Assembly (NCBI GenBank): GCA_020847175.1
Contig: JADLCM010000001.1
Span: forward strand, 1-64,000
DNA length: 64,000 nt
Source of the DNA: Phycisphaerales bacterium
GTDB lineage: Bacteria > Planctomycetota > Phycisphaerae > Phycisphaerales > UBA1924
Direction: 5' to 3'
Below, piece after piece: positions 38,164 to 63,548 of the stretch (positions are counted from its first letter, which is position 1; the number at the start of each line of letters is the position of its first letter). The translations under genes were made by a program, and so were the position numbers. The notes beneath the pieces were generated by a model. It ran no database searches. It had not been told where the DNA came from and worked only from the letters and a program-made list of their open reading frames with translations.

Positions 38164-38168
38164 CGTTC

Positions 38169-40769: not shown

Positions 40770-40774
40770 CGCAC

Positions 40775-42633: not shown

Positions 42634-42684
42634 TCGGCGGCCGCCTGCTCGCGCCTGCGCACGTGCGCGCTGAACCCCGCCCGG

Positions 42685-44700: not shown

Positions 44701-44834
44701 GGGCGCTCCTTCCCGCTCAGGCGGGGTCGCACAGCCTACCGAGTCGCGTCCCCGCTGCCTCGGCCGACGCCCCGGGGGTGGGGTGGGAGCGCCGCGCAAG
44801 CCGATACCCTATTCTCCTCTCCAGCGGAAGCACG

Positions 44835-46373
44835 ATGAACCTCACCCAGTTCTTTGAGCACTGGCGCATCGCCGAAAACCCGTTCCGGGCCGAAGAGGCC
44901 CGCAACGACGAGGTCTTTCGGCGCCTGTGCGAGCGGGCCCTCGACCCGGAGGCCGGCGCGGGGCGGGGCGCCGTCCACTCCGACTTTGAGAAGATCCTGG
45001 GCCAGCTCGACCGGCCCAGCAGTTCGGTGGTCTTCGGCGAGAAGGGGTCCGGCAAGACGGCGATCCGGCTCCAGATCGAAGCCGCGGTCGCCCGGCACAA
45101 CGCCAAGTCGCCTCAATCCAAGGTGCTTCTCGTCGCCTACGACGACCTCAACAGCAAGCTCGACCGGCTCTTCCGCGCGTCGCCGGCCAAGACACCGATC
45201 GACGCCTTCAAGGGTATCCGGCTTGTCGATCACCTTGACGCCATCCTCGCCCTCGCCGGGACGCAGGTGATCGACGCGGCGCTCGGAGAAGGTTCGGGCG
45301 AACGCATCTTCGGCACCGATCCACGTCCCGCGCTCAAGCGGCTTGACCCAGCCTCCAGGCGCGACCTGCGCCTGCTCCAGGTGGCCTACGACGAGGCCGA
45401 GCAGGCGGGAGCCCGCGCGGCGCGCCTCCGCAGGAGCCTGCGGGTCAGGCACTCCCGGGCTCGTCGCTGGCTGACCATCGGCGTCTGGATGGGCTGGTTG
45501 CTCCCCGCCGGCGTGCTCGTCGGGCACGCCCTCACCGGGTTCCACCCCAACCCGCTCTGGACCGGCGCCTACGCGGCGGCCTTCGCGGCCTGGGGCGCCG
45601 CCCTCCTCAAACGCTTCGGCTGGGACCGCCTCGCCGTGCGCCGCACCGCCCGAAAGCTCCGCAAGCAGCTGCGCATCCTCGGACGCGACGACCAGTCCCT
45701 CATCGCAGCGGTCGATGAGCTCGAGCCCGGCGACCGGCGCCCCGGCCTCCTGCCCGTGACCGATTCCGATGAGCCCCGCTACGCCATGCTCACCCGGCTG
45801 ACCCGGGCGCTCCGGACGCAGGGATACGCCGGCATCGTCGTCGTCGTGGACCGCGTCGATGAACCGACCCTGGTCTCGGGCGACACCGACCGCATGCGTG
45901 CGGTGGTCTGGCCCTTGTTCAATAACAAACTCCTCCAGCAGGAGGGCGTCGGGGTCAAGATGCTCCTGCCCATCGAACTTAGGTACGCGCTGTTCAAGGA
46001 GAGCAGCGCGTTCTTTCAGGAGGCACGCCTCGACAAGCAGGGCCTCGTGGAGCGCCTGACCTGGACCGGCCCGATGCTCTACGACCTCTGCACGGCGCGC
46101 CTCAACGCCTGCCGCGTGCCCGGCTCGCCCCCGATGAGTCTGCTCGACCTGTTCGGAGAGGATGTGTCGCGCCAGGATGTCGTCGATGCCCTTGAGCAGA
46201 TGCACCAGCCCCGCGACGCGTTCAAGTTCCTCTATCGCTGCCTGGGTGAGCATTGCGCCGCGGTGAGCGTCGAAGAACGCCAGTTCCGCATCCCCCGGGT
46301 CATCCTCGAAAGCGTCAAGCGCCAGGAGACCGAGCGCCTCGCCCAACTCTACCGCGGAATCCGACCCGCATAG
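44835..46373 (+). CDS. P-loop NTPase with two membrane helices inserted in the domain (KAP-like)
   Basis: A 512-residue protein. Walker A is FGEKGSGKTA (67-76) and the Walker B-like strand is YAGIVVVVDRVDEP (331-344). Between them lie two membrane helices (about 212-232 and 241-258). Insertion of membrane segments into the P-loop domain is the hallmark of KAP-type NTPases; the assignment rests on this layout. The N-terminal HWRIAENPFRAEEARN resembles the ENPF start of some AAA ATPases. The C-terminal 170 residues are helical without clear motif. Start ATG 44835 with GCGGAAG; TATTCT near 44810 is a likely -10. Function unknown. Confidence 0.75.
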   Translation: MNLTQFFEHWRIAENPFRAEEARNDEVFRRLCERALDPEAGAGRGAVHSDFEKILGQLDRPSSSVVFGEKGSGKTAIRLQIEAAVARHNAKSPQSKVLLVAYDDLNSKLDRLFRASPAKTPIDAFKGIRLVDHLDAILALAGTQVIDAALGEGSGERIFGTDPRPALKRLDPASRRDLRLLQVAYDEAEQAGARAARLRRSLRVRHSRARRWLTIGVWMGWLLPAGVLVGHALTGFHPNPLWTGAYAAAFAAWGAALLKRFGWDRLAVRRTARKLRKQLRILGRDDQSLIAAVDELEPGDRRPGLLPVTDSDEPRYAMLTRLTRALRTQGYAGIVVVVDRVDEPTLVSGDTDRMRAVVWPLFNNKLLQQEGVGVKMLLPIELRYALFKESSAFFQEARLDKQGLVERLTWTGPMLYDLCTARLNACRVPGSPPMSLLDLFGEDVSRQDVVDALEQMHQPRDAFKFLYRCLGEHCAAVSVEERQFRIPRVILESVKRQETERLAQLYRGIRPA

Positions 46374-46556
46374 CACAGGAATGGGCGCGTCGGAGCGTGG
46401 CAATCGCGCCCGTCTCAACCCGCGCTCACCTCGCACGCCCACCCGACTCCCGCCCGGCATTTCGCAATGACCCGCCGCGCCGGACCGATACATCCCCCTG
46501 CGGGCTATGCTCCCGCGCGAGTTCTCGGAACCGCCTCACCCACCTGAGGATGTGCC

Positions 46557-47174
46557 ATGCCCAACCGCTACAAGACCGTCCTGCTCTTCGGAGCCCCCGG
46601 CGTCGGCAAGGGCACCCAGGGCAAGATACTCGGCCAGGTCCCCGGGTTCTTCCACCTGTCCTGCGGCGATGTCTTCCGCACGCTCGACGTGAACTCCGAT
46701 CTCGGGCGCGTCTTCCAGGAGTATTCCTCCCGGGGCGAACTCGTCCCGGACGACCTCACCATCCGCATGTGGTACGAGAACATGCACGCCCGGACCATTC
46801 TCAGCATCTACAAGCCCCGCGAAGACATCCTCGTCCTCGACGGCATCCCCCGCAGCGTGAACCAGGCCAGGCTGCTTGAGAAATACATCGACGTGCTCTG
46901 CGTCGTGCATCTCCGCTGCCCCGACCCCGAAAAAATGATCCAGCGCCTCCGCCGGCGCGCCCTCAAGGAGAACCGGGTCGACGATGCCCGGGAGGACGTG
47001 ATCCGGCGCCGCTGGCAGGTGTACGAAGCCGAAACCGCTCCCGTGCTCGCCTGTTACCGCCCGGAGATCATCCGCGAAGTGGACGCCGTGGGTTCGCCCG
47101 CCGCCGTGCTCCAGCACGTGCTCCAGGCCGTCGTGCCTGTGCAGGAGCGCCACTTTTCATCTCGCGCCGGCTGA
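46557..47174 (+). CDS. adk: Adenylate kinase-type nucleoside monophosphate kinase
   Basis: This enzyme interconverts AMP + ATP and 2 ADP. The 205-residue protein has the P-loop FGAPGVGKGTQ (10-20), the AMP-binding LSCGDVFRTLD, and LVLDGIPRSVNQARLLEKYI with the family's DG(F/I)PR motif. RRRALKENRVDDAREDVIRR stands where the long LID would be, so it is a short-LID form without the zinc-type lid. It is not beside secY or ribosomal genes where adk usually lies, so it may be a paralogue with a different nucleotide preference. Confidence 0.82.
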   Translation: MPNRYKTVLLFGAPGVGKGTQGKILGQVPGFFHLSCGDVFRTLDVNSDLGRVFQEYSSRGELVPDDLTIRMWYENMHARTILSIYKPREDILVLDGIPRSVNQARLLEKYIDVLCVVHLRCPDPEKMIQRLRRRALKENRVDDAREDVIRRRWQVYEAETAPVLACYRPEIIREVDAVGSPAAVLQHVLQAVVPVQERHFSSRAG

Positions 47175-47214
47175 CTCTTCATCCGCGGGCACGCCCTGAA
47201 CGCCGCGCGGTCTC

Positions 47215-47997
47215 TCATCCCGCCGACGACGGCTTTCCGAACCGGGGCAGCCAGCAGTCCAGCACGACCATCAGCCCGGCCACGGTCACGCCGCCGCTGA
47301 ACACCGCGCCGCCCGCAACGACCAGCCACGCCAGCTGCACATTGTCGCGCGCGAGCCACCACCCTCCGATATCCGCCAGCAGCCCCAGCCCGATCACGCA
47401 CGCCACCGGGTGGGTGAGCAGCCGGGGCATCCGCGTGGCGAGCATCAGCCCCCCCATCACCAATCCCATGAGCGACAGGCTGAGCGCGTGCACGTGCGTG
47501 GACAGCGCCAGAATCCGCTTGTCCACCGGCTTGATCTCCCGGCTCAACGTCAGGGGCCGAATCGCCCCGAACTCCGCCGCGCGCAGATTGACCGCCGGGT
47601 GCGCTCCCTCCGCCGTCGCGCCCGGGGCGTGGCAGCTCACGCAGTTCCGTTCGATCAGTTCCATCGGCGTCAGGTCGAGCGCGTCAGGATCGTTGTACGC
47701 CCGCGCCATCTCGTCCGGCGACTGCGCCAGCCACGCCTTGAGCACCGCCCGCACCTCGGGCGACAGGCTCTCGGGGTGCCCCCGGTCCAGCGCCGCCTGG
47801 AGGTCGCTCGTCCGGGTGACGCCGTGATAGTGGGCCTTCACGTCATTGATCGTGAGCCCGGGCCGCTCATCGCGGTTCTCCTGCATCAGATAAAGAAAGT
47901 ACCCCGACGCCGCCGTACCGCCCACGAGCGTGAGCACCAACGCCGTCAGCCCGATCCTCGGCAGAAACCCCAGGTTCCGGATACGCATCGAAGTCAT
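47215..47997 (-). CDS. Membrane protein with a monohaem cytochrome c motif
   Basis: A 260-residue protein. One N-terminal membrane helix (about 12-35) leads to an outer segment with the haem-binding motif NCVSCHAPG (CxxCH, about residue 118). Then come three to four further helices from about 160 (LSTHVHALSLSLMGLVMGGLM, VACVIGLGLLADIGGWWLA, LAWLVVAGGAVFSGGVTVAG). The His residues in STHVHAL could bind haem b. A TACCAT box lies 6 nt before the ATG. It is divergent from sdhC, so it may transfer electrons in the same respiratory chain; that is inferred from position and motif only. Confidence 0.72.
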   Translation of the reverse strand: MTSMRIRNLGFLPRIGLTALVLTLVGGTAASGYFLYLMQENRDERPGLTINDVKAHYHGVTRTSDLQAALDRGHPESLSPEVRAVLKAWLAQSPDEMARAYNDPDALDLTPMELIERNCVSCHAPGATAEGAHPAVNLRAAEFGAIRPLTLSREIKPVDKRILALSTHVHALSLSLMGLVMGGLMLATRMPRLLTHPVACVIGLGLLADIGGWWLARDNVQLAWLVVAGGAVFSGGVTVAGLMVVLDCWLPRFGKPSSAG

Positions 47998-48003
47998 GCG
48001 CGC

Positions 48004-48009
48004 ATGGTA
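48004..48009 (-). promoter_or_regulatory. -10 box (TACCAT) 6 nt before the cytochrome-like gene
   Basis: On the minus strand TACCAT, GCGCGC, then ATG 47997. Fits the leaderless pattern of the region. Confidence 0.5.
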
Positions 48010-48222
48010 CCGGCCCGCCGCGCGGGGCGCGCCCCAGAGGCCCCGTCCTCATCACTCCCGGCGCTTCGTCGCCTCGTCGCTCGATCCGGCAGCGCCCGAG
48101 AAAGCCCGCGAACCCCCGGGGCGCGACGCGCGCTGCTCCCCGGGGTTCCAACCACCCTCCGCGTCCGATTCCGCTAAAGTACCCGCGGCTGCGGGCCCAG
48201 CGCCCGCGCCAGGAGGCATCGC

Positions 48223-49050
48223 GTGCCCGGACTCGCTGGCTTTCTCGACAAGCACTACCTCCTCTTCCGCAGGCTCCATTCCCTCACCGGGGTCTTCCCG
48301 GTCGGCGTTTTCCTCTGCACCCACCTCCTGACCAACTCCTCCATCATCTGGGGCATGTTCAACAGCCGCGCGCCGGGCAATGGCATCGAGCGGGGCGTCG
48401 CGACCTTTCAAGAAGACGTCTCCTTCATCAACCACCTTCCCTTCCTCCTCTTCATCGAGATCAGCCTCTGGGGCGCCATCGCCTTCCACGCGGTCCTCGG
48501 CGTCTACTACGCGCGTACCGGCAAGTTCAACGCCACCCGGTACCCCTACCAGGACAACTGGCGCTACGTCATCCAGCGCGTCACCGGGTACCTCGCCCTT
48601 CTGTTCATCGTCTACCACGTCGCCACCCTCCGCTGGGGGTGGTCTTGGCTGGTCCCCGGCGGCACCACCTGGAAGCACATCAACGCCGGTTCCACCCTGG
48701 CCGCCGCCCTTCGCGGCAGCGCCAACGGCCCGGTCGAGTTCGGCGGCATCATCGTCGGCCTGCTCTACGCCGTGGGCGTCACGTCCTGCGTCTTCCACTT
48801 CGCCAACGGGCTGTGGACCGCCGCCATCACCTGGGGCCTCACGGTCTCCGTCGCCGCCCAGAAGCGCTGGGGCTACGTCTGCTTCAGCGTCGGGGCGGCG
48901 CTCATGGTGATGGGCTGGGCGGCTCTCATCGGCTTCATGACACTCAACCCCGTGAAGGCCCGCGACATCGAAGAGGGCAAGCACCTGCTCGTCCCGTCCG
49001 TCGAGCCCGCCCCCGCCCCTGCTGACCCCGCACCCCAGCCTCGGAACTGA
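48223..49050 (+). CDS. sdhC: Succinate dehydrogenase cytochrome b subunit (type B)
   Basis: The membrane anchor of succinate:quinone reductase that passes electrons to the quinone. The 275-residue protein has five membrane helices, and His residues suited to ligate two b haems sit in the helices (RRLHSLTG, LCTHLLTN, AFHAVLGVY, IVYHVATL, CVFHFANG). A single large subunit with five helices is the Bacillus/Wolinella type, usually coupled to menaquinone. The last about 25 residues are Pro-rich. Start GTG 48223 follows a perfect AGGAGG; TAAAGT near 48173 is a likely -10. It is the first gene of sdhCAB. Confidence 0.92.
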   Translation: MPGLAGFLDKHYLLFRRLHSLTGVFPVGVFLCTHLLTNSSIIWGMFNSRAPGNGIERGVATFQEDVSFINHLPFLLFIEISLWGAIAFHAVLGVYYARTGKFNATRYPYQDNWRYVIQRVTGYLALLFIVYHVATLRWGWSWLVPGGTTWKHINAGSTLAAALRGSANGPVEFGGIIVGLLYAVGVTSCVFHFANGLWTAAITWGLTVSVAAQKRWGYVCFSVGAALMVMGWAALIGFMTLNPVKARDIEEGKHLLVPSVEPAPAPADPAPQPRN

Positions 49051-49096
49051 CCCGCACCCCGCGCGCCCCACCGCGCGACAACGGAACCTCCCGCGC

Positions 49097-51037
49097 ATGG
49101 CACAGCATCGCGTCATCGTCGTCGGCGGCGGACTCGCCGGCCTGGCCGCCAGCGTTCGCATCGCCGAAGCCGGCCTCCCCGTCGATCTCTTCAGCATGGT
49201 CCCCGTCAAGCGGAGCCATTCGGTCTGCGCGCAGGGCGGCATCAACGCCTGCAACGATGTCGCCCGCCAGCAGGGCTACAGCGAATACCAGCACTTCGAC
49301 GAGACCATCTACGGAGGCGACTTCCTCGCAGATCAGCCCCCGGTTCTCGAAATGACCAACTGGGCCCCCAAGATCATCGACCTCCTCGACCGCATGGGCG
49401 TGCCCTTCAACCGCTCTCCCGAGGGCCGGCGCGATCTGCGGCTCTTCGGCGGCAGTCTCTTCAAGCGCACCCACTTCGCAGGCGCCACCACCGGGCAGCA
49501 GCTCCTCTACGCCCTCGACGAGCAGACCCGGCGCTACGAGGTTGAAGGCAAGGTCAACAAGTACGAGTTCTGGGAGTTCCTCTGGCCCGTCATCACCGGC
49601 GAGGGCGACGCCCGGCGCTGCGTCGGCATCGTCGCCCAGGACCTGCGCACCATGCAGATCCGCGCCTTCCGCGCCGATGCAGTCATCATGGCCACCGGCG
49701 GATGCGGGCTCGTCTTCGGCAAGAGCACCAACTCGATCATCTGCACCGGCGGCGCCGCCAGCCGCTGCTACCAGGCCGGCGCGTGGTACGCCAACCCCGA
49801 GATGATCCAGGTCCACCCCACCGCGATCCCCGGCGCCGACAAGTGCCGCCTGATGAGCGAGAGCGCCCGCGGCGAGGGCGGCCGGGTCTGGGTTCCTCGC
49901 AAGAAGGGCGACACCCGCGCCCCGCGCGACATCCCCGACGCCGAACGCTACTACTTCCTCGAAGAGCGCTACCCCAAGTACGGCAACCTCGTAACGCGCG
50001 ACATCGCCACACGCGAGATCTTCTCGATCTGCGTCGATGATGCCATGGGTGTCGGGGGCGAGAACGTCGTCTACCTCGACCTCACCCACAAGGACCCCGA
50101 CTACCTCACCCGCAAGCTCGGCGGAATCCTCGAAATCTACGAGAAGTTCGTCGGCGAAGACCCCCGCAAGGTGCCCATGAAGATCTTCCCCGCGGTCCAC
50201 TACAGCATGGGCGGCCTGTGGACCACCTACGCACGAGGGGCCTTCCGCCCCGGCGCGCCCGCGGGCGAACACAAGTCCGGCAGCCTTCCGCCCGTCGGGA
50301 CCGCCCTCGGCGTCGGCATGCGGTACGGCGCGCACGAGAACATGCGCACGAACATCACCGGCCTCTACGCCTTCGGCGAAGTCAACTTTGCGTTCCACGG
50401 CGCCAACCGCCTCGGGGCCAACGCGCTGCTCTCCTGCCTCTTCGACGGCCTCTTCTCCGGCGTCTCCGTCGTCAACTATGTGCGAGAAGGAGAGCCCGCC
50501 GCCAAGCCCGCCGAATCGCTCCCGGCCGAAGTTTTCGACGCCTGCGTGCGCCAGGAGACCGCCAAGGCCGACCGGCTGCTTGCAACCGCCGCCCAGGGCC
50601 CGGGCGGACCCGAGACCAATCCCTACGTCATCGCCAGGGAGATGGGCGAGGAGATGACCGCCGCCTCTACCGTGGTCAAGAGCGGCCCGCGCCTTGAGCA
50701 GGCCGCGGCGAAGATCGCGAGCCTCCGCGAACGATTCTCGCGCGTCCGCCTCGAGGACGCCGCCGCGTGGAGCAACCAGAGCCTCTCGTTCACCCGGGCG
50801 CTGGGGGACATGCTCATCCTGGCGCAGATCATCATCCGGGCCGGTGCGATGCGCAAGGAGAGCCGCGGCGCCCACTACCGCGTCGATTACCCTGATCGCA
50901 ACGACGCCGAGTTCATGAAGACCACCTGCGCCGCGTACGACCCCGGCGCCGCCGACCCGCACCAGATCACCTACCGCCCCATCGATGCCGACCTTGTGGC
51001 CCCCCGCGCCCGTACCTACGGCAAGGTGGACGGATGA
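49097..51037 (+). CDS. sdhA: Succinate dehydrogenase flavoprotein subunit
   Basis: Oxidises succinate to fumarate with covalently bound FAD. The 646-residue protein has the nucleotide-binding VIVVGGGLAGLAAS at the N-terminus and RSHSVCAQGGINACND, whose His should bind FAD covalently. It then has ATGGCGLVFGKSTNSIICTG, the substrate-site QVHPTAIPG and RGEGGRVWVP, and FGEVNFAFHGANRLGANALL with the FAD-binding His/Arg/Asn cluster. The C-terminal DYPDRND segment is typical. It lies between sdhC and sdhB in the same direction (46 nt after sdhC). The length fits the type B enzymes. Confidence 0.95.
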   Translation: MAQHRVIVVGGGLAGLAASVRIAEAGLPVDLFSMVPVKRSHSVCAQGGINACNDVARQQGYSEYQHFDETIYGGDFLADQPPVLEMTNWAPKIIDLLDRMGVPFNRSPEGRRDLRLFGGSLFKRTHFAGATTGQQLLYALDEQTRRYEVEGKVNKYEFWEFLWPVITGEGDARRCVGIVAQDLRTMQIRAFRADAVIMATGGCGLVFGKSTNSIICTGGAASRCYQAGAWYANPEMIQVHPTAIPGADKCRLMSESARGEGGRVWVPRKKGDTRAPRDIPDAERYYFLEERYPKYGNLVTRDIATREIFSICVDDAMGVGGENVVYLDLTHKDPDYLTRKLGGILEIYEKFVGEDPRKVPMKIFPAVHYSMGGLWTTYARGAFRPGAPAGEHKSGSLPPVGTALGVGMRYGAHENMRTNITGLYAFGEVNFAFHGANRLGANALLSCLFDGLFSGVSVVNYVREGEPAAKPAESLPAEVFDACVRQETAKADRLLATAAQGPGGPETNPYVIAREMGEEMTAASTVVKSGPRLEQAAAKIASLRERFSRVRLEDAAAWSNQSLSFTRALGDMLILAQIIIRAGAMRKESRGAHYRVDYPDRNDAEFMKTTCAAYDPGAADPHQITYRPIDADLVAPRARTYGKVDG

Positions 51038-51191
51038 TTCCCCCACGCCCGCTCACGCCGGTCTGTCCGCGGGCCGCCCGATCGCCCGGTGCCGGGCGCG
51101 CCGGGTCTGAGGCGTACCGTGAAGCCGTCCGCCCCGCCTGCCGACGAATCGGACGCACCCGCCCGGGCCACCGCCCCCAGAGGACCGCCCC

Positions 51192-52010
51192 ATGACCACC
51201 CATGCCCCTCGTTCCAAGCCCGTCGCCGGACGGAAGATCCGCGTCACCATCAAGCGTGCGGAAGGGCCGGGCAAGCCCTTCCGCTGGGAGACCTTTGAAG
51301 TCGCCCCGGAACCCGGCGGCAACATCATCAGCCTCCTCCAGAAGATCGCCGCCGACCCCGTGACCGTCGAAGGCCGGCGTTCCACCCCCGTCGTGTGGGA
51401 TTCCGGCTGCCTCGAGGAAGTCTGCGGGGCGTGCACCATGGTCATCAACGGCAGGGTCCGCCAGTCCTGCTCGTGTCTCGTCGATGACATCGCCCCTAAC
51501 CCCGGCGACGAAATCTCCCTCGAACCGATGACCAAGTTCCCGGTCGTGCGCGACCTCTGGGTCGATCGCGCCCGCCTCTTCGACACGCTCAAACGCCTCA
51601 AAGCGTGGGTGCCGATCGACGGCACCTACGCCCTCGGCCCGGGCCCCACCGAGACCGCCGGCCAGCAGGCCGTCAGGTACGTGCTCTCCACCTGCATGTC
51701 CTGCGGCTGCTGCCTCGAGGCCTGCCCACAGTTCAACCTCGAGACCGACGAGACCCGCTGGGACAAGTCCTTTATCGGCGCCCAGGGCTTCAGCCAGGCT
51801 CGCCTCTTCAACGACCACGCCACCGGCGCCCAGCTCAAGAGCGACCGCCTAGGCGTGCTCTCCGCGCAGGGCGGAATCGCGGACTGCGGCAATGCGCAGA
51901 ACTGCGTCAAGGTCTGCCCCAAGGACATTCCGCTCACCGAGAGCATCGGCGCCATCGGGCGCGCCGTCACGCTGCACGCCATCGCCAAGTGGTTCAGCGG
52001 CAGGTCGTGA
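51192..52010 (+). CDS. sdhB: Succinate dehydrogenase iron-sulfur subunit
   Basis: Carries electrons from FAD to the membrane subunit through three iron-sulfur clusters. The 272-residue protein has the [2Fe-2S] cysteines in SGCLEEVCGACTMVINGR followed by SCSC. The second cluster motif is CMSCGCCLEACP, and the third set is CGNAQNCVKVCPKD. The start is ATG 51192 with AGAGGA upstream. About 154 nt separate it from sdhA. Its stop overlaps the GTG of the next gene (GTGA), so that gene is translated with the operon. The CxxC pattern with Cys at each position indicates a complete [4Fe-4S] and [3Fe-4S] set. Confidence 0.94.
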   Translation: MTTHAPRSKPVAGRKIRVTIKRAEGPGKPFRWETFEVAPEPGGNIISLLQKIAADPVTVEGRRSTPVVWDSGCLEEVCGACTMVINGRVRQSCSCLVDDIAPNPGDEISLEPMTKFPVVRDLWVDRARLFDTLKRLKAWVPIDGTYALGPGPTETAGQQAVRYVLSTCMSCGCCLEACPQFNLETDETRWDKSFIGAQGFSQARLFNDHATGAQLKSDRLGVLSAQGGIADCGNAQNCVKVCPKDIPLTESIGAIGRAVTLHAIAKWFSGRS

Positions 52011-53038
52011 ACGCGCGCTGGTCCATCTCCGGCGCCGCCTCCGCCCGCGAACTCGGCCTCGCCCACCGCGGGGCCTGCGCGATCGCCTCGGGCAACGGCC
52101 TTGAAGTCGTCCGCCTCGCGTTCGCTCGCCTCAGCGCCGGCGAACACCCCCTCGATGCGTGCGTCGCGGGCGTCACCCTGCTCGAGGACGACCCCGACGA
52201 TGTCAGCGTCGGCTACGGAGGGCTCCCCAACGCGCGAGGCGAGGTCGAACTCGACGCCGCGGTGATGGACGGCCCCACGCATCGCGCCGGGGGGGTCGCC
52301 GGCCTGCGCGAGGTGCGCCACGCGGCGTCGCTCGCCCGCGATGTCCTCCGGCATACCGACCACGCGCTCCTCGTGGGCGAGGGCGCCCTGGCCTTCGCGC
52401 TCGACCGCGGCTACCGGCGCGAGAGCCTTCTCTCTCCGACCGCGCGCACCGCCTATGAGACGTGGCGCCGCGAACGCGACGCCCTGGGGCGCGAGCCCAC
52501 CGGGCTTCTCTCGGATGAAGATCGCTGGATGCTCCCCGACACCCACGGCGCGGGCCCGCCCATCCCGCACACGCACGGCACCGTGCATTGCGGCGCGCTC
52601 GCGCTCGACGAGCGCCAGGCCGCGTGCACCACCACCAGCGGTCTCTCCTGGAAGATGCCGGGCCGGGTGGGAGATTCGCCCATCGTCGGCGCCGGCCTCT
52701 ACGTCGAACAGGGCATCGGCAGCGCCGGCGGCACCGGGCGCGGCGAGGCGGCCCTCCAGTCAGGCGCCGCCCACCAGGTCGTCCGGCTCATGGCTCACGG
52801 CCTGCCCCCCACCGACGCCTGCGTCGCCCTGCTCACCCACGTCATCGACCAGACCCGCGATCCGCGTCTCTTGGACGCCCGCGGACTCCCCGCCTTCAAC
52901 CTCACCATGTATGCGCTCCGCGCCGACGGCGCGTTCGGCTCCGCGGCGATCTACGAAGGTTACTTCTTCGCGATCGGCGCCGAATCGGGCCCCTGCCTGC
53001 TCCCCAGCGTGGGAATTCTGCCCCGCCCCGGCGCGTAG
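52007..53038 (+). CDS. N4-(beta-N-acetylglucosaminyl)-L-asparaginase (Ntn hydrolase)
   Basis: An aspartylglucosaminidase/isoaspartyl-peptidase-type amidohydrolase of 343 residues, made as a precursor that cuts itself before the nucleophile Thr. The cut site is PHTHGTVHCGALALDERQAA (about 191-210, with Thr as new N-terminus of the beta chain). TTSGLSWKMPGRVGDSPIVG and GAGLYVEQGIGSAGGTGRGE follow, as in the family. The GYGGLPNARGEVELDAAVMD segment in the alpha chain is also conserved. GTG 52007 overlaps the sdhB stop. There is no signal peptide, so a cytosolic role is likely here. Confidence 0.88.
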   Translation: MNARWSISGAASARELGLAHRGACAIASGNGLEVVRLAFARLSAGEHPLDACVAGVTLLEDDPDDVSVGYGGLPNARGEVELDAAVMDGPTHRAGGVAGLREVRHAASLARDVLRHTDHALLVGEGALAFALDRGYRRESLLSPTARTAYETWRRERDALGREPTGLLSDEDRWMLPDTHGAGPPIPHTHGTVHCGALALDERQAACTTTSGLSWKMPGRVGDSPIVGAGLYVEQGIGSAGGTGRGEAALQSGAAHQVVRLMAHGLPPTDACVALLTHVIDQTRDPRLLDARGLPAFNLTMYALRADGAFGSAAIYEGYFFAIGAESGPCLLPSVGILPRPGA

Positions 53039-53122
53039 CCCCGCGCGGGCCCAGCCCCTCGCATCGACGCCATTCGTGCGCGCACGAACGCGGTCGTTCT
53101 GCGTTTACAGCACGCCAGGGCA

Positions 53123-53138
53123 TGTTCCACGTGGAACA
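53123..53138. promoter_or_regulatory. parS-type partition site (perfect palindrome)
   Basis: TGTTCCACGTGGAACA is a perfect 16-bp palindrome (18 bp with the outer A and T) matching the bacterial parS pattern TGTTnCACGTGnAACA bound by ParB. It is in the intergenic gap between the convergent asparaginase and dinG genes, where such sites are tolerated. parS sites cluster near chromosome origins, which agrees with mnmG only 5.5 kb away. No parA/parB gene is in the window. I saw one copy only. Confidence 0.82.
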
Positions 53139-53186
53139 TTGTGAGCGCCCCGCCCGCCTTCTTGCCCGCCCGCTGCCCGTACGGCG

Positions 53187-55247
53187 TCATTCGTCGACAC
53201 CCACGCGCCGGACTTCGACGCCCTCGGGCAGTCCTCTCAGAAAGAGCCGACCGTAGCGGGCGGTCAGAATGCGCGGATCGAGCACGACCACGCGTCCGTG
53301 GTCCTCCTGCGAGCGGATGAGCCGTCCGATGCCCTGGCGGAACCGGATCACCGCGCGCGGGATCGAGTCTTCGCGGAAGGGGTCTCCGCCCCGCGCCTTG
53401 ATGAGCTCACCCCGGGCTTCGGTCAGGGGCCGGTCCGGGGGCTCGAATGGCAGACGGGTGATGATGACGTTGCGCAGGCCCCGCCCGCGCACATCCACGC
53501 CCTGCCAGAAGGAATCGGCCCCCAGCAGCACGCTGCGCTCATCGGCGCGGAAGCGCCTGAGCATCTGCCCCCGCGCCTCACCCGCCCGATGCACGATGAG
53601 CGGCAGGCCCGCCTCGCGCAGCGGGAGCTCCAGCCGCTCGGCGGCGTACTCCAGCGCGCGGAAACTGGTGAAGAGCACGAACGCCCCGCCGTCGGTCTGC
53701 GCGACGTGCCACAGGATGCGCTGGGAGAGCTTCTCGCTGATCTCGCGGTCGCCCCCGGAGCCGGGCGCCGGGGCGAGCATGTCCACGTAGAACTCCATCT
53801 GGCGGGTGAAATTGAAGGGGCTGCCCAGACCCATGACCTTGGCGCCCTCGCACCCCAGGCGCGACATGATGAGGCTGAAGCCGGCCTCGGCGTGCTCCGC
53901 GGGCTCGTCGTCGCGCGCGGGGCGCGTGCCGAGCGTCGCGCTGGTGAGCACGACCGAGCGCGGCGTGTCGAAAAGGTGCTGCTTGAGAATCGGCGCCACG
54001 TCCACCGGGGCGCAGGCGAGCTCCACCCTGGGGCCGCGCGGGGTGCTCTGCGCATCGACCCAGTACACCGATCCGGCCTGCGTCTGGCCCACGATGCTCG
54101 CGGTGCTTTCGGCGAGCTCCGCCGCCCTGCGCGCGTAACTCGTGAGTTCAAACTTGTCCTCTTCGTTCTTGACGCGCTCCTTGAGGGCGGCCAGCGCAAG
54201 CGAGAGCTCGTGGAGAGGCCGCGAGAGCGTGTCGGGCACGAGGTGCGGGGTGCGGACACGGGCTCCGGCCAGGCGGCCCTCGATGCGGGCCTGCGCCCAC
54301 GCCCCGAAGAACTGGCGCGACGCTTCCCCGGCTTCAAGGGTTCGCCCGATCGCCCGCTCCACCAGTTCACCCGCATCCCCGGCGCTCAGCACGCCCGCAA
54401 GCGACGCGAGGTAGCCCTTGCGCCGGCGGGCGTCGTACAGCGTGCGGAGGAGGAACGCGACGCGCCCCTCGCTCACGGTGAGTCCGAAGTGCTCGCTGGC
54501 GACATCTTCGAGCGCGTGGGCCTCGTCGAGAATGACGTGCTGGTAGTCGGGCAGCAGCGCGGCCCCGCCGGCCCGCAGCGCGAGGTCACTGAAGAAGAGC
54601 GCGTGGTTGCAGATGAGGAGGTTCGCCTCTTCGGCCTCGCGCCGGGCGCGCTGGTAAAAGCACGTGCTGTAGCGCGGGCACTTGCGCCCCATGCAGTTGT
54701 CCGCGTCGGACCGGACCAGGTCCCACACGTCGGGGCGCTCGATCGCGGGGCGCGTGCTGAGCGTGCCATCGGAGGTGTCGTAGGCCCACGACTCGATCAC
54801 GCGGAGGGACACGCGCGACTCTTCGTCGCGCAGCACGTTCTCCCCCCGCCGGCTTGCGAGTTCAAGTCGCCGGATGCTCAGGTAGTTGCCCCGGCCCTTG
54901 ACCAGTACGGGCCGCAGTGAACCGCTCCAGCCCGGCACCGACTCATCGAGCGTGCGCGCGAGCAGCGGCACGTCCTTCTCGATGAGTTGCTCCTGGAGCG
55001 CGATGGTGTTGGTCGCCACGACGACCGTCTCGCCCGTGGCGACGATCCGCGCGATCGCGGGCACGAGGTAGGCGAAACTCTTGCCCACGCCCGTGCCCGC
55101 TTCGACCAGCAGGTGCGAGCGGTGCTCCATCGCCTCGGCCACGGCACCCGCCATGCGGACCTGCTCTGCGCGGGGTTCGAAGGTGCCGCCCAGGGCCCGC
55201 GCGATGGGCCCGTCAGTCCCCAGGATGGTCGCCTCTAGGCCGTGCAC
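53187..55247 (-). CDS. dinG: DinG-type ATP-dependent DNA helicase
   Basis: A superfamily 2 helicase (XPD/DinG group) of 686 residues. Motif I is VEAGTGVGKSFAYLVPA. The four cysteines of the iron-sulfur cluster appear as CMGRKCPRYSTCFYQRA plus an upstream or downstream partner. Motif II is VILDEAHALEDVA, motif III is LTSATLG, and later come FTSFRALEYAAE, SFWQGVDVRGRG and RFRQGIGRLIRSQEDHG (motif VI). It unwinds 5'-tailed DNA and R-loops. The start is taken at GTG 55247, six bases after a TACAGT box; ATG 55277 is the alternative and gives ten more residues. The parS site is just downstream of its stop. Confidence 0.88.
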   Translation of the reverse strand: MHGLEATILGTDGPIARALGGTFEPRAEQVRMAGAVAEAMEHRSHLLVEAGTGVGKSFAYLVPAIARIVATGETVVVATNTIALQEQLIEKDVPLLARTLDESVPGWSGSLRPVLVKGRGNYLSIRRLELASRRGENVLRDEESRVSLRVIESWAYDTSDGTLSTRPAIERPDVWDLVRSDADNCMGRKCPRYSTCFYQRARREAEEANLLICNHALFFSDLALRAGGAALLPDYQHVILDEAHALEDVASEHFGLTVSEGRVAFLLRTLYDARRRKGYLASLAGVLSAGDAGELVERAIGRTLEAGEASRQFFGAWAQARIEGRLAGARVRTPHLVPDTLSRPLHELSLALAALKERVKNEEDKFELTSYARRAAELAESTASIVGQTQAGSVYWVDAQSTPRGPRVELACAPVDVAPILKQHLFDTPRSVVLTSATLGTRPARDDEPAEHAEAGFSLIMSRLGCEGAKVMGLGSPFNFTRQMEFYVDMLAPAPGSGGDREISEKLSQRILWHVAQTDGGAFVLFTSFRALEYAAERLELPLREAGLPLIVHRAGEARGQMLRRFRADERSVLLGADSFWQGVDVRGRGLRNVIITRLPFEPPDRPLTEARGELIKARGGDPFREDSIPRAVIRFRQGIGRLIRSQEDHGRVVVLDPRILTARYGRLFLRGLPEGVEVRRVGVDE

Positions 55248-55253
55248 GCGGGC

Positions 55254-55259
55254 ACTGTA
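55254..55259 (-). promoter_or_regulatory. -10 box (TACAGT) 6 nt before GTG 55247
   Basis: On the minus strand TACAGT, GCGGGC-complement spacer of six bases, then GTG 55247. If this is the promoter, the upstream ATG 55277 cannot be the start. Confidence 0.35.
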
Positions 55260-55323
55260 GCGAACCGCGGATGACATCAGGGGCGCCGCAGAGCCGACGG
55301 ACGGATGGCATCCGGCGCGATGC

Positions 55324-56373
55324 TTACGGGTCGATTTCGATCGCCCGCCCGGTGCGCGCCGAGTCGAGCATGCCCTCCATGCACCGAAGCACGTGAAGCG
55401 CGGCTGCCCCGCTCGCCTGGTGCGGGCGCCCGGCGCGGATGGATTCGACCATGTCGTGCAGCCCGATGCCGCGTGCGTTGTCGATCTCGCCTTCGCCCAG
55501 GGGCACGTCGCGCCAGTCGGGCTCGCCGGCGCGCCGGATGCGCACGGGCCCACCGAATGCGTTGGGGTCGGGGAGCGAGAGCGACCCGGCCGCGCCGTAG
55601 ATCTCCATGCAGGGCAGGCTGTGGGCGGGGGTCTCAAAGCTCATGATCATGGTGAGCATGCCCCCCGACGCGAAAGCGGCGCTCGCGGAGATGTGCGTGG
55701 GCGTGCCGACGGCGAAGCGGGCGCCGGCGCGCGGGCCGCTCTTGATGCACCGTTCCGCCTCGGACATCTGGGCCATCGCCGTGACCCGGCTGATCGGCCC
55801 CATGAGTCGCGTCGCGCACGTCAGGTAGTACGGCCCCATGTCCCAGAGGGGCCCTGCGCCGGGGCGGAAGAGAAACTCGGGGTCGGGGTGCCACTCGTTC
55901 GGCCCGGCGTAGGCCATGAACGCGCCGATCGCCCGGGCGGGGCCGATCACACCGGCACGCAGGATGCGCTCGGCCGTGCGCCAGCCCGCGCCAAGGAAGG
56001 TGTCAGGGGCGCACCCGAGCCGCACCCCGCGCGCCGAGGCGAGACGCACCAGGCGCTCCCCGTCCGCCGCATTGAGGGCCAGCGGCTTCTCGGTGTACAC
56101 GTGCTTGCCCGCGTCCAGCGCGCGGGCCGTGACCTCGGCGTGCGACTCCGGGGGCGTGAGATTGAGAACCACATCGACTTCGGAACTGGCGAGCAGGTCC
56201 GCAGGCGTCACGGTGAGGCAGCCGGGGTGCCGGTCGGCGAACGCTTCGGCACGCGCCGGCACGGCATCGGCGACAGCGGCGAGCTCCCACGTGCCGAACC
56301 GCCCCGCGTTGCGGGCGTACGCGGGCGCGACGTTGCCGCACCCCACGAGGCCCACGCGAACCGGAGCACTCAT
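55324..56373 (-). CDS. Gfo/Idh/MocA-family oxidoreductase
   Basis: An NAD(P)-dependent sugar or inositol dehydrogenase-type enzyme of 349 residues. The N-terminal Rossmann fold has VRVGLVGCGNVAPAYARNA (4-22) and LNLTPPESHAEVTARALDAG. The signature VYTEKPLALN (Lys-Pro of the active site) lies near 93-102. The C-terminal beta-sheet domain includes GPLWDMGPYYLTCATRLMGP (the D..pH-type substrate region, here DMGPYY). It is translationally coupled (ATGA) behind the isomerase gene at 56370, a common pairing for sugar catabolism. The particular sugar is unknown. Confidence 0.88.
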   Translation of the reverse strand: MSAPVRVGLVGCGNVAPAYARNAGRFGTWELAAVADAVPARAEAFADRHPGCLTVTPADLLASSEVDVVLNLTPPESHAEVTARALDAGKHVYTEKPLALNAADGERLVRLASARGVRLGCAPDTFLGAGWRTAERILRAGVIGPARAIGAFMAYAGPNEWHPDPEFLFRPGAGPLWDMGPYYLTCATRLMGPISRVTAMAQMSEAERCIKSGPRAGARFAVGTPTHISASAAFASGGMLTMIMSFETPAHSLPCMEIYGAAGSLSLPDPNAFGGPVRIRRAGEPDWRDVPLGEGEIDNARGIGLHDMVESIRAGRPHQASGAAALHVLRCMEGMLDSARTGRAIEIDP

Positions 56374-57104
56374 CGCAGCATCCCCCGGAGCGCGGCGAAA
56401 TTCTCGACGGCGCAGGTCATGGCGTCAGGCCCGTCGGGCTCGTCCTGCTCCACGATGAGCCAGTCCGACGCGATGTCGCGCACGAAGCCAGCATAGCCGA
56501 CCCCACCTCGCCCGAGACGGCGGAAGTCGCGTCCGCCCCGGGAGGCGAGGTCCTTGATGTGGGCGGCGCGGGTGCCCTTCGAGCGGGCCCGTGCCCAGGC
56601 GCCGGGGTCTTCGCCCGCTTGCCACAGCCAGCCGTAGTCAAACTCGAAGGCAAGCGAGGGTCGCAGGGCATCCAGCACGTCCCAGAGGCGCGTGCCGTCG
56701 TCAAGGCGAGCGAACTCAAACTCGTGGTTGTGCCAGGCGAGGCGGAGGCCGCACGCCGCGACGCGATCGGCGGCGAGCGCAACGCGCCGCGCGATGAGGC
56801 GGGCCTGCTCGCCGGTCTGCGGCGGGTGAACCCAACCGACAATCAATGTGTCGAACCCGATGGTGCGAGCCCACGCTTCTTCACGCGCGAGGTCGCCTTC
56901 AAGCGCATCGAGCGATGTGTGCCCGCAGGGACATTCAAGGCCCTCGGCACTGAGCATCCGGCGCACCTCGCCCGGAGTGCGCCCGTGGCGCAGGGCGAAC
57001 TCGACCCCTTCGGCCCCCATCTCGCGAACGCGCGCCAGCACGCCGGGGAGGTCCGCGTCGCAGGCCTCACGCACGCTGTAGAGTTGCAGCCCGATTCTCG
57101 CCAT
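56370..57104 (-). CDS. Sugar phosphate isomerase/epimerase (xylose isomerase-like TIM barrel)
   Basis: A 244-residue TIM-barrel protein of the AP-endonuclease-2/sugar-isomerase group. It begins IGLQLYSVREACDADLPGVL, the usual start of this family. GLRLAWHNHEFEFARLDDG carries metal-binding His and Glu residues, followed by FEFDYGWLWQAGEDP and AAHIKDLASRG, with the acidic and His metal ligands in the expected order. The start is ATG 57104 behind AAGGGAG. It overlaps the oxidoreductase gene by four bases, so the two act together on a sugar or polyol. Reaction not assignable. Confidence 0.87.
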   Translation of the reverse strand: MARIGLQLYSVREACDADLPGVLARVREMGAEGVEFALRHGRTPGEVRRMLSAEGLECPCGHTSLDALEGDLAREEAWARTIGFDTLIVGWVHPPQTGEQARLIARRVALAADRVAACGLRLAWHNHEFEFARLDDGTRLWDVLDALRPSLAFEFDYGWLWQAGEDPGAWARARSKGTRAAHIKDLASRGGRDFRRLGRGGVGYAGFVRDIASDWLIVEQDEPDGPDAMTCAVENFAALRGMLR

Positions 57105-57134
57105 GCACTCCCTTGAGATCACGCCCCGGGTCCA

Positions 57135-58487
57135 TCACGCGCGGGCGCCGCGCCGACGCATCATCACGGCCCCGTCCACGAGGGTGAGCACCGCGCGCCC
57201 GCGGATTCGCCGGCCCATGAATGGCGTATTGCGGCTCTTTCCAGCGAGTTCGGCCGGGGTGACGGTCCATTCGAGCGCCGGGTCGATCACGGTGATGTCC
57301 GCCGGGCCTCCCTCGCGGAGCGTGCCGAGGCCCTGCGCATCGAGGCCGCAGAGGCGGGCGGGCTCGATGGTGAGGAGGGCGATGAGGCGGGGTTCGTCGA
57401 TGGCCCCGCTGCGGACGAGCGCTTCGTGGTAGAGGCCGAAGGCGGTCTCAAGGCCGATCATGCCCATCGGGGCGCTCTCGAAGTCCTGGGCCTTCTCGTG
57501 GGGCGCGTGGGGGGCGTGGTCCGTGCCGAGCACCGTAATCACCCCGTCGGACACTGCACGCCGGATGGCTTCGATGTCGCCCGCCTCGCGGAGGGGCGGA
57601 TTGACCTTCGCGTTCGTGTCATACGCGGCGCAGGCGTCGTGCGTAAGGAGAAGGTGGTGCGGCGTCACCTCGGCCGTGACGGGCAGGCCCCGGGCTCGCG
57701 CGCCCCGCACGATCTCCACGCTCCCCCCGGAACTGATGTGCTGCACGTGGTAGCGACAGCCGGAGGCACCCACGAGGCGCACGTCGCGCTCGATGATGAT
57801 CTCTTCGGCCTCCCGGGGCCAGCCCCCGAGCCCGAGGCGCGTGGCGACGCCGCCCGCGTGCATCGCCGCGCCACGGGTGAGAGTCGGGTCCTGGCAGTGC
57901 TGCATGAAGACGCGCCCGGTGACGGCCACCAGGCGCAGCACCTTGAGCATCACGCCCGCATCTGCGATGGCGTCTCCGTCGTCGCTGAAGGCGACCGCGC
58001 CGGCGCGGGCGAGCAGGCCGATCTCAGCGACCTGCTGGCCGTGCCGCCCCAGCGTGCCCGCAGCGACAAGAAAGACGCGGCAAAGGCCCGTCTCTCGCGC
58101 CCGGTCGTAGACGAAGCGCACGATCTCGGGAGAATCAATGGCTGGGCTGGTGTTGGGCATGCAGCAGAGGCCGGTGAACCCGCCGCTGACGGCGGCTTCG
58201 GTGCCGGAGGCGATCGTCTCCTTGTGCTCATGCCCGGGTTCACGGAGGTGGACGTGCGGGTCAATGAGGCCGGGGGCGACGAGGCAACCGGAGGCGTCGA
58301 AGACATCCGTCCCGGCGGGTGCATCCAGGCGCACACCGATGCGCTGAACCAGACCGCCAGCGACCAGCACGTCTGAAACCTCATCGCGCCCGGACGCGGG
58401 GTCGATGATGCGCCCGCCGCGGATCAGCATCGGAGCGCGCGGGCGCCCTGTTATCGGCGTGGGCTGGGCCGGTCCGGCGGTGGTCAT
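57135..58487 (-). CDS. pyrC: Dihydroorotase
   Basis: Cyclises carbamoyl-aspartate to dihydroorotate in pyrimidine synthesis. The 450-residue amidohydrolase has VAPGLIDPHVHLREPGHEHK (metal HxH plus conserved REPG), GGFTGLCCMPNTSPAID, EVTPHHLLLTHD, and VLGTDHAPHAPHEK with the catalytic Asp. The PFMGRRIRGRAVLTLVDG end is typical of the long class I/II form. The HxHxRxPG motif distinguishes dihydroorotase from hydantoinase. The start is ATG 58487, five bases after TATCCT. It sits upstream of the sugar gene pair on the same strand (30 nt), but with an unrelated function. There is no pyrB in the window. Confidence 0.92.
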   Translation of the reverse strand: MTTAGPAQPTPITGRPRAPMLIRGGRIIDPASGRDEVSDVLVAGGLVQRIGVRLDAPAGTDVFDASGCLVAPGLIDPHVHLREPGHEHKETIASGTEAAVSGGFTGLCCMPNTSPAIDSPEIVRFVYDRARETGLCRVFLVAAGTLGRHGQQVAEIGLLARAGAVAFSDDGDAIADAGVMLKVLRLVAVTGRVFMQHCQDPTLTRGAAMHAGGVATRLGLGGWPREAEEIIIERDVRLVGASGCRYHVQHISSGGSVEIVRGARARGLPVTAEVTPHHLLLTHDACAAYDTNAKVNPPLREAGDIEAIRRAVSDGVITVLGTDHAPHAPHEKAQDFESAPMGMIGLETAFGLYHEALVRSGAIDEPRLIALLTIEPARLCGLDAQGLGTLREGGPADITVIDPALEWTVTPAELAGKSRNTPFMGRRIRGRAVLTLVDGAVMMRRRGARA

Positions 58488-58492
58488 GCCCA

Positions 58493-58498
58493 AGGATA
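58493..58498 (-). promoter_or_regulatory. -10 box (TATCCT) 5 nt before pyrC
   Basis: On the minus strand TATCCT, TGGGC, then ATG 58487. A clear leaderless arrangement. Confidence 0.55.
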
Positions 58499-58675
58499 CC
58501 GGAGGCACGGGGAGAGGGTGAACGCCCGGCGCCCGGGAGTCGCGGGCCGATGCGCGCGCGAGGTGACGCTCCAGGGGGCGGACGACTCCGATCCGGAGGA
58601 GTCCGACCTTTGAACCGCGCTCCGGGCTTGAGTACCGCGTGCGTCCGCCCGGGACGGCGGCGGTTGCGGCCCACC

Positions 58676-60586
<1,911 letters not shown>

Positions 60587-61143
60587 GGGCAGATTGTTGG
60601 AAGGTGCGCGAATCGACGCCTGTTTCCGGGTCCGGCTGCGGGGATTGATGCCGGTGTCGTGATGGACGAGTTGGCCAGACGGAGAAACCCGGTGTGTTCG
60701 AGGGCGCACATGCGGAGATCGAGAGAGGGCCGCCGGCGGCCCCTCGAAACGGCGCGTGGAGCAGGGGTTGCCGCAGAGGCGCCCCCGATGCACCGCACCG
60801 CGAAGCTGCTCCCCGCGCGGTTGACCCGCGACGCGCACGCGGGCGCGTCGCACCTGGCCCGCGCCCGCCGCACGCACTGCCGCATGAGGCGGGGGACGCA
60901 TCCTCGCGCGAATCGTCCGGGGTCACGCGGGTATGCGGGCGCGCGAGACCGGCTCGCGCCGGAGCTTGAGCGATCTTCCCGCCGCCCACTGCTCCGCACC
61001 GATTACCATGAGACGTGCGCAGCGGGTGCGCGCACAGCGCCCCACACAACCTCGGCAGGCTGGGCGTCTCGCCGCGCACGATCGCGCCGGCGCAAACCAT
61101 CCCGGCATGTGGGACCCGCACGCTCCCGTGCCGGCCACCACGC
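60587..61143. other. 557-bp region between mnmG and the OmpA-type gene, no gene recognised
   Basis: This gap holds the promoter side of mnmG and the end of the OmpA-family gene (both minus strand). Frames open through it give Arg/His/Ala-rich products without family features, so I call no protein. I looked for RNase P, SRP, tmRNA and tRNA signatures by eye and found none. No DnaA boxes (TTATCCACA-type) were seen. It contains several inverted GC-rich repeats, such as GGGCCGCCGGCGGCCC near 60728. Confidence 0.4.
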
Positions 61144-62019
61144 CTACTTGTTCACGTCGAGGGGCCGATTGGGCGCCGCGGTTCGATCTGCGCCGATGTT
61201 GCCGCTTGCCTCGGGCACGGAAGCGTTCAGGCCCCCGGTGCTGCGGCGCAGGTACAACTCCACGCGCCGGTTCTGGGGGGTGTTGCCTGAGGCGCTGTTG
61301 GCGACGAGCGGGCGCTCCGCGCCCCAGCCCGCCACGAGCAGGCGGGCGCTCGGAATCCCCAGACTCACCAGTTCGCCCCGCACGCTGATCGCCCGGTGGG
61401 CGGAGAGGTGCGTGTTGGTAGGGTGGCGCTTCGCGGTCTCGGGATTGCTGATGCGCTGCGCATCGGTGTGCCCGACGATCTCGACGTCGTACTGCGCCGC
61501 GGTGCCGGCGAGCACGCTGGCGAGCGACTGAAGCGTGCTCTTGGCCGAGGGCTTCACCACGTCAGAGCCCGAGTCGAACGTGAGGTCGCTGTTGAACCGG
61601 AGCATGCCGTGCTCGGAGTCGTAGGACAGGAGGTCCGGGTGCTGGGCCGCGAGGTCGGCCAGCGCCATGTCGGTCGCCGGGTCGAGGCGGGTCTGGTCCA
61701 TCGAGTTGATGAGCCCGCCCATCTCGCGGAGGCGCCGGTCGCGATCGTCAATCTGCGCCTGCATGTCGGCGATCAACTGATCTCGCCCGCTCGCGCCGCC
61801 CCGGATCGAGGCAAGCTGCCGGTCCTTTTCGGCGAGCGACTGGTTCGCTTCGCTGAGGTCGTTCTCGAGCGCGACGACCTGCGACTGCAGCGCGCGGCTG
61901 GTCCGCAGGCAGTCGTCGAGGCTCTTGCTGTTCGCGCACCCGCCGAGCAGTGCGCCGCTCAGCGCCAGGCCCACGATGCTGATCCCCAGCCTCCGTGCGT
62001 GTGTCCGTCCCGCGACCAT
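61144..62019 (-). CDS. OmpA-family lipoprotein with coiled coil
   Basis: A 291-residue outer-membrane lipoprotein. The lipobox is LSGALLGGC (Cys28). A coiled coil follows (about 45-95, LENDLSEANQSLAEKDRQLA). The OmpA C-terminal peptidoglycan-binding domain spans about 125-265: LTFDSGSDVVKPSAKSTLQS, VEIVGHTDAQRISNPETAKR, LSAHRAISVRGELVSLGIPS and GNTPQNRRVELYLRR. The Asp and Arg residues that bind peptidoglycan (HTDA and NRRVEL) are present. It should tie the outer membrane to the cell wall, like Pal. The start has AAGGAG upstream. It is divergent from the amidohydrolase gene. Confidence 0.9.
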   Translation of the reverse strand: MVAGRTHARRLGISIVGLALSGALLGGCANSKSLDDCLRTSRALQSQVVALENDLSEANQSLAEKDRQLASIRGGASGRDQLIADMQAQIDDRDRRLREMGGLINSMDQTRLDPATDMALADLAAQHPDLLSYDSEHGMLRFNSDLTFDSGSDVVKPSAKSTLQSLASVLAGTAAQYDVEIVGHTDAQRISNPETAKRHPTNTHLSAHRAISVRGELVSLGIPSARLLVAGWGAERPLVANSASGNTPQNRRVELYLRRSTGGLNASVPEASGNIGADRTAAPNRPLDVNK

Positions 62020-62154
62020 GCCGTGCTCCTTCCGTGTGTCCGCCCCGGGTCCCCCGGGGTGCAAAGATTGTGCGGCTCCGACTCGCTCGCAGGGTACGCC
62101 AGCGCACCGGGCGCGTCATCATGGTGCGCGACCGATCCCGACTCACCTGACAGC

Positions 62155-63507
62155 ATGTCCACCAGTCTTCCACAACCCCGAACCTCCCCGGCCTTTCTGC
62201 CGACGCTCACGACCCATGCGCACCTCCGGATTCACGCCGCGCAGGTCGTTGACGGAGCAGGGGTTGACTATTCCCCCGGGGCTCTACTTATCGAAACATC
62301 GACCGGAACCGTCAGGGCCGCCGGGCGCCCGGGAGACCCCGACCTCGACGCGCCGGCGGAACTCGATCTCGGCGACTGCGTGGTCATGCCTGGGCTTGTC
62401 AATGCCCACGCGCACCTTGACCTCTCGCTCATGGGCGCGACTCCTCCGGCCCAGCCATTCGTCGATGCGCTCGCGGCATTCCGGCAGGCCCGGATCGCGG
62501 ACCCGACGCAGATCGTGCGGGCCGTCACCCTCGGCGCTCGGAAGAGCCTGGAGGCCGGAGTGGTCGCGGTCGGCGACATCGCCGGGGCGATTGGAACCAG
62601 CCTCGGGCTCTCGGCAGGCGTTGCTCTCGCGGCGACCCCGATTTGGGGGATGACGCTGTACGAGTTCTTCGGCATCGATATTGACGAACCGCAGACCAGA
62701 GATCGCCTCGCCCCGGCGCTCGGGCTGCTCGGCGCAGATGACTCGGGCGGCGCGGGGCTCTCGCCCCACGCCCCGTACTCGGTGGGCCCGGATGCGATCG
62801 GCGCCGCGCGTCGATTCGCCTCTGACGCCGGGGTGCCGCTCGTCATTCACCTTGCCGAGAGCCCCGAGGAAGCCGAATTGGTTGCCTCCGGGCGGGGCCC
62901 GATGCGAGAGCTCCTCGATTCGCTCGGCCTCTGGAACGACCGCGTCGCATCGAAGTTCGGGCGAGGGCTGAGCCCGATCCGGCATCTCCAGCCTCACCTT
63001 GGGCCCGGGGTGACGTGCATCCATGTCAACCAGGCGAGCGACGACGATCTCGACCTGCTGGCCGCATCGGGAGCGCACGTGGTGTACTGCCCGAGGGCGA
63101 GCGCGCATTACGGGGGCGAGCGTGCGTTCGGCCCGCACAGATACCGCGAGATGATGGAACGAGGCATTCCGGTGGCGCTGGGCACCGACTCGGCCGCAAA
63201 CCTTCCCGAAGGGGCGATGTCTCCAGAAGGAGAGGGGATATCGATCCTGGAAGAAATGAGACTGCTGCATCGGCGCGATGGCGCGGACCCGCGCGTGCTC
63301 ATGCGGATGGCGACGGTGGACGCGGCCCGGGTGATCGGGCTGGATCAATCGCGGGTCCGGCTGGGAGCGGGGTGCCGCCCCCTGGGGCTGGTCGCGATTG
63401 AGGCCCCCCCGGGGCCAGGAACGCCCCTGGAGCGGGCGCTGCGGAGCGGCGGTCGCCCGTTTGTGCTGCTGGGGGAGAAAATCTCTCGCGGCACGCGAAT
63501 AGTCTGA
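62155..63507 (+). CDS. Amidohydrolase-family metallohydrolase (chlorohydrolase/deaminase type)
   Basis: A 450-residue enzyme of the amidohydrolase superfamily. The metal motif is MPGLVNAHAHLDLSLMG (HxH, about 78-94). Next are GAGLSPHAPYSVGPDAIGAA and PLVIHLAESPEEAELVAS (third His and Glu), VVYCPRASAHYG, and VALGTDSAANLPEG (catalytic Asp). The pattern matches the ATZ/TRZ-type group that includes S-adenosylhomocysteine/methylthioadenosine deaminases and related nucleobase deaminases. Which amine or chloride is removed cannot be said. ATG 62155 gives a normal N-terminal beta-sandwich (IHAAQVVDGAGVDYS). No ribosome binding site or -10 box is clear. Confidence 0.87.
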   Translation: MSTSLPQPRTSPAFLPTLTTHAHLRIHAAQVVDGAGVDYSPGALLIETSTGTVRAAGRPGDPDLDAPAELDLGDCVVMPGLVNAHAHLDLSLMGATPPAQPFVDALAAFRQARIADPTQIVRAVTLGARKSLEAGVVAVGDIAGAIGTSLGLSAGVALAATPIWGMTLYEFFGIDIDEPQTRDRLAPALGLLGADDSGGAGLSPHAPYSVGPDAIGAARRFASDAGVPLVIHLAESPEEAELVASGRGPMRELLDSLGLWNDRVASKFGRGLSPIRHLQPHLGPGVTCIHVNQASDDDLDLLAASGAHVVYCPRASAHYGGERAFGPHRYREMMERGIPVALGTDSAANLPEGAMSPEGEGISILEEMRLLHRRDGADPRVLMRMATVDAARVIGLDQSRVRLGAGCRPLGLVAIEAPPGPGTPLERALRSGGRPFVLLGEKISRGTRIV

Positions 63508-63548
63508 GTCAGGCAGGAATTGGCGCACGGGGCGCCCGGCGGGGTGAA

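Follow-up and report, generated by a model that had tools for sequence, protein, structure and literature searches.

A predicted parS site lies at one of several scattered GC-skew switches in a Phycisphaerales bacterium

A perfect 16-bp palindrome between two convergent genes raised the question of whether the right part of a 64,000-nucleotide stretch of Phycisphaerales DNA, analysed here over its whole length and called the window below, lies near the origin of chromosome replication. The palindrome, TGTTCCACGTGGAACA, matches the 16-bp palindromic parS consensus with 0 mismatches, and Pfam-supported gene calls confirmed the original prediction that a palindrome of parS type occupies the convergent gap between an asparaginase gene and dinG (Table 1). 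It is the single match within the window even when ≤3 mismatches are allowed, a level at which 13% of shuffles yielded a match; the real site has no mismatch. The ParB gene on which the prediction depends is present in the genome. Contig C3 encodes a ParB of 308 aa that carries ParB_N (E 1.4e-33), HTH_ParB (E 1.8e-27) and ParB_C (E 1.7e-8) domains and, according to its PDB matches, resembles solved ParB, Spo0J and Noc chains. A perfect parS copy, identical to the window site, lies ~305 bp upstream of parB. Given that the genome encodes this canonical ParB and carries a copy of the site just before its gene, parS is the safe reading of the palindrome, which by its sequence is very probably a chromosome-segregation site.

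Table 1. Coordinates of the predicted parS, its neighbouring genes and the flanking skew domains in the window
Feature	Position	Strand	Evidence or description
Left skew-domain arm	28000..53122	.	GC skew negative, ~-0.06 growing to -0.15 towards parS
Asparaginase_2-family gene, left neighbour of parS, convergent	51989..53038	+	Pfam PF01112, E 7e-54
Predicted parS, perfect 16-bp palindrome TGTTCCACGTGGAACA	53123..53138	.	Sequence match; canonical ParB in genome
Right skew-domain arm	53139..64000	.	GC skew near zero to +0.05 inside window
DinG-type helicase gene, right neighbour of parS, convergent	53187..55277	-	Pfam PF13307/PF00270
mnmG/gidA, 5.5 kb from parS	58676..60586	-	Pfam PF01134, E 8e-133

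In common with known ParABS systems, the genome combines the canonical 16-bp parS, a ParB with ParB_N, HTH and C-terminal domains, a parS near parB, ScpB and ParA-like ATPases. It differs from them in that no parA was found adjoining parB, the ParA-like matches sitting on other contigs, and in that single parS sites are scattered over contigs, on skew minima of their own, instead of forming one oriC-proximal set. Among named genomes, several Phycisphaerales MAGs encode relatives of the ParB; the best matches are 41-45% identical, which makes placement in this order likely. A second protein with a ParB_N domain is encoded at a contig end of the same genome (G000 C44 20296-20478, L012); the part of it that was read has no ParB HTH match.

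The prediction that the palindrome occurs once holds for the window and fails for the genome. Across the assembly (3.18 Mb in 70 contigs, 95.6% complete and 0.45% contaminated) we found seven perfect and two one-mismatch copies spread over nine contigs, and a control with the 16-mer in reversed order gave no perfect match in the whole genome. All seven perfect copies are intergenic by our own gene calls, which came from a simple custom script, though ~85-88% of the sequence is coding; convergent, divergent and tandem gene pairs all occur next to the copies. Most relatives have 0-3 parS copies, frequently clustered, and a parS-rich minority of the family has more: 22 in G020, nine each in G076 and G129, seven in G080, six in G116, and five each in G005 and G086. 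None of the genomes sampled from the order outside this family has more than three. The site between asparaginase and dinG is absent at 29 related dinG loci, that of a same-genus relative included; parS positions are therefore not conserved, and conservation of this particular site was ruled out. The parS loci L027, L028, L029 and L032 of G020 have a G-run on the left and a C-run on the right, and the palindrome is lengthened at several sites.

Cumulative GC skew in the window declines from ~28 kb, passes through a minimum at 53-56 kb, at about parS, and then climbs; the window parS thus shows the negative-to-positive switch by which a bacterial oriC is recognized. Past the window, skew on the right arm reaches +0.06 to +0.15 over 64-88 kb of contig C1 and then falls back to ~0. 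Each of the remaining copies in the genome also sits at a local switch from negative to positive skew, which is weak on contigs C34, C45 and C59. Measured over 8 kb, the right-minus-left skew at the nine sites averaged +0.159, compared with a mean of 0.000 (sd 0.066) at random positions on the same contigs (z = 7.2; 0 of 200,000 draws reached the parS value) and with -0.01 at 22 control CCACGTGG sites other than parS. The averaged profile has its peak strength within ~10 kb of parS and is near zero past ~30 kb in either direction. Conversely, five of the seven strong minima that were identified after gene-strand correction on eight contigs of this genome, mostly picked for carrying parS, are no more than 3 kb away from one. 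The statistical association of parS with skew switches is strong. A genome-wide comparison of the 16-mer (≤1 mismatch) with GC skew bears on the original prediction in two ways: the copies are scattered, as would speak against it, yet each is tied to a skew switch.

The sign of the skew does not depend on the direction of the genes. Third-position GC skew, read on the + strand, is negative left of parS and positive right of it for genes of both strands, with values of -0.22/-0.08 on the left and +0.08/+0.28 on the right in this genome, and of -0.45/-0.25 and +0.29/+0.28, respectively, in G020. In intergenic DNA, too, the sign is set by the side of parS, and a site-by-site check of third positions found that the side rule holds, with few exceptions in small samples. 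T rises along with G right of parS in several comparisons, and a joint rise of G and T is the usual leading-strand signature. Skew minima remained once the gene-strand effect had been subtracted, and in four of the four genomes examined the corrected minima are sharper than the maxima (in this genome, 99th percentile +0.140 versus 1st percentile -0.078), which is what fixed starting points with diffuse ends would produce. Several negative-to-positive minima per contig, independent of gene strand and sharp where the maxima are diffuse, form the pattern expected of multiple origins, and this pattern was found.

The polarity recurs among related genomes, which were profiled as draft assemblies sampled mainly near parS. 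In seven family genomes, skew is higher on the right than on the left at 48 of 49 parS sites or clusters; the lone exception is on G076 C10, and several other sites are weak, the sign change being weak or missing near 925 kb in G016 and on C12, as well as C10, of G076. In G020, skew is negative to the left and positive to the right of every one of the 22 parS sites, which form 20 clusters. On the 342-kb contig C1 of G020 there are four V-shaped minima. A parS lies no more than 1.5 kb from three of them; at the remaining one, near 183 kb, there is none even with 3 mismatches allowed. At 12 parS clusters close to parB, taken from named genomes across several phyla, no right-minus-left jump exceeded 0.1.

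Other skew centres lack parS as well. In the genome under study, contig C5 has a clear minimum without parS near 93.7 kb (L096-L101), the dnaA-type gene of that contig being ~27 kb away. On the 1.06-Mb contig C2 of the relative G016, strong minima that are independent of gene strand and free of parS lie near 774.7, 849, 873 and 981 kb (L208-L224), neighbouring ones being 24-108 kb apart. The 334 kb of G016 that were examined thus hold several parS-less centres, and the parS pair near 925 kb is off any strong minimum. No long palindrome of another kind is common to the parS-less centres. Given that such centres exist and that none of 29 relatives has the parS at dinG, parS tracks skew centres and does not make them.

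How near to oriC, then, is the window? The view that its right part is close to oriC retains in its favour a parS identified by sequence, a matching ParB and a skew switch of origin polarity. The stronger claim, that this parS marks the neighbourhood of a single oriC, found no support: the genome holds 7-9 scattered copies, this site among them, and each has a skew switch of its own. The position of mnmG, which had been taken as a pointer to oriC, is not specific evidence for it, and the window genes near parS include ordinary chromosomal types, such as mnmG and a dihydroorotase-like gene. Neither dnaN nor gyrB is among the genes located up to 10 kb from the window parS. Mapping parS against parB and dnaA placed parB on C3 and the two DnaA-type genes on C5 (a 481-aa frame) and C29, all off the window's contig C1 and on contigs that are unordered. 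A search with one DnaA box sequence, TTATCCACA (≤1 mismatch), revealed no clustering within 1 kb of the parS sites, and no motif other than parS was found to be common to the centres.

We assign a probability of roughly 0.5 to the reading that parS sits at one of many dispersed origin-like centres on the chromosome and that these centres recruit parS. As judged from skew, the odds that replication starts at the parS-centred minima are about even. A bidirectional, strand-asymmetric process would operate at each centre, and it would leave G- and T-rich strands leading away on both sides; because such outward strands arise regardless of gene direction, replication moving outwards is the simplest candidate. 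Forks from many centres would meet at variable places, which would account for the fading of the asymmetry seen over ~30 kb. In ordinary bacteria, ParB at the single oriC segregates the origin and loads SMC. Here, ParB would bind at the scattered sites, segregating each newly copied centre and loading SMC there, and parS would be selected near centres. The dispersed-origin reading is weakened by the lack of a DnaA-box cluster and of any common motif but parS, by centres without parS, and by parS sites with a weak or missing sign change. Gene orientation around the centres, with 77 genes pointing outward and 70 inward, has no outward bias; such a bias is a feature of long-lived origins, and its lack counts against dispersed origins. 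Only tentatively, and with somewhat less than even confidence, do we extend the reading to the Phycisphaerales-type family, whose single chromosome would be copied from many origins that are dispersed and poor in DnaA boxes, with a parS per origin in some lineages.

The scattered sites might instead be an oriC-proximal set around a single oriC, with the local switches created by inversions or mis-joins. The parS sets of Pseudomonas and Streptomyces, at 1-20 sites and up to 650 kb around oriC (PMC7174722), resemble the present ones in having many copies (7-9 here, 22 in G020); our own assembly consists of 70 unordered contigs; and parS is both a repeat and a palindrome, embedded in G020 in G-run/C-run arms. 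Those sets are described as oriC-proximal (PMC7174722), whereas here each site has its own negative-to-positive switch and skew is not flat but reaches zero within tens of kb (~30 kb). Inversions and mis-joins also predict positive-to-negative switches equally often, whereas 48 of 49 go in one direction, and parallel skew centres lie away from parS on the 1.06-Mb contig of G016. We therefore regard a single oriC of this kind as unlikely. That the bin combines a number of small replicons, every one equipped with an origin and a parS, is very unlikely: it would fit the many copies on separate contigs, some of them near contig ends, but several centres share a contig (G020 C1, G076 C4 and G016 C2), and the neighbours of the window parS include ordinary chromosomal genes.

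Two further alternatives leave replication out of account. SMC loaded by ParB could run outwards from parS and expose the strands to unequal mutation or repair with no replication start, which would suit an asymmetry that is symmetric about parS and decays over tens of kb, and would suit parS being the sole common motif found. However, comparable skew centres are also found where parS is absent, the 12 parS clusters near parB in several phyla indicate that parS makes no switch in general, and we know of no such mutational effect of SMC; we consider this quite unlikely. If, on the other hand, parS merely lay where gene direction changes, coding-strand bias would do the rest. The genes do converge exactly at the window parS, and coding strands in this genome are C-rich at third positions, but genes of both strands and intergenic DNA follow the side of parS, neighbouring pairs are convergent, divergent and tandem, and the minima survive gene-strand correction. 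Gene orientation as the cause of the switches is thus largely refuted by the strand-independent third-position skew and the corrected minima, and only a slight chance is left to it.

A single origin per chromosome is a strict rule in all bacteria according to a 2023 review (PMC10331603), and the natural use of multiple origins by any bacterium has been described as an unsettled matter (PMC4403523). Exceptions have been proposed from skew (Xia 2012, PMC3269012; Gao 2015, PMC4403523), both studies cautioning that minima alone are not proof. For those bacteria, as for ours, the case for multiple origins was built on strand asymmetry; here, by contrast, an independent mark, parS, coincides with the minima across several genomes, and the centres lack the DnaA-box clusters that Gao 2015 required (PMC4403523). 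Archaeal chromosomes of the Sulfolobus type likewise have several separate skew minima per chromosome (PMC3269012). The present organisms, however, are bacteria that have DnaA, and their centres yielded neither an origin sequence nor an initiator gene; the reading here comes from skew. We found no title or abstract on parS at scattered skew minima or on multiple origins in this group, in a literature search that left most subscription journals uncovered.

In several genomes the sequence mark parS independently predicts where many separate skew switches of origin type lie, and the minima that it marks give defined positions for a test of multi-origin replication. The switches at parS hint that a chromosome in these bacteria may have many replication starts instead of one. 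If true, ParABS would segregate many origins per chromosome, an organization in a bacterium that is like that of eukaryotes or archaea. Should replication start elsewhere, a process that treats the two strands unequally and is centred on parS would still be new.

The DnaA-type protein of contig C29 (G000 C29 29635-29835, L014) scores below the DnaA equivalog cut-off. Its open frame of 719 aa combines an ATPase domain with a C-terminal DNA-binding domain, and it could be a second initiator.
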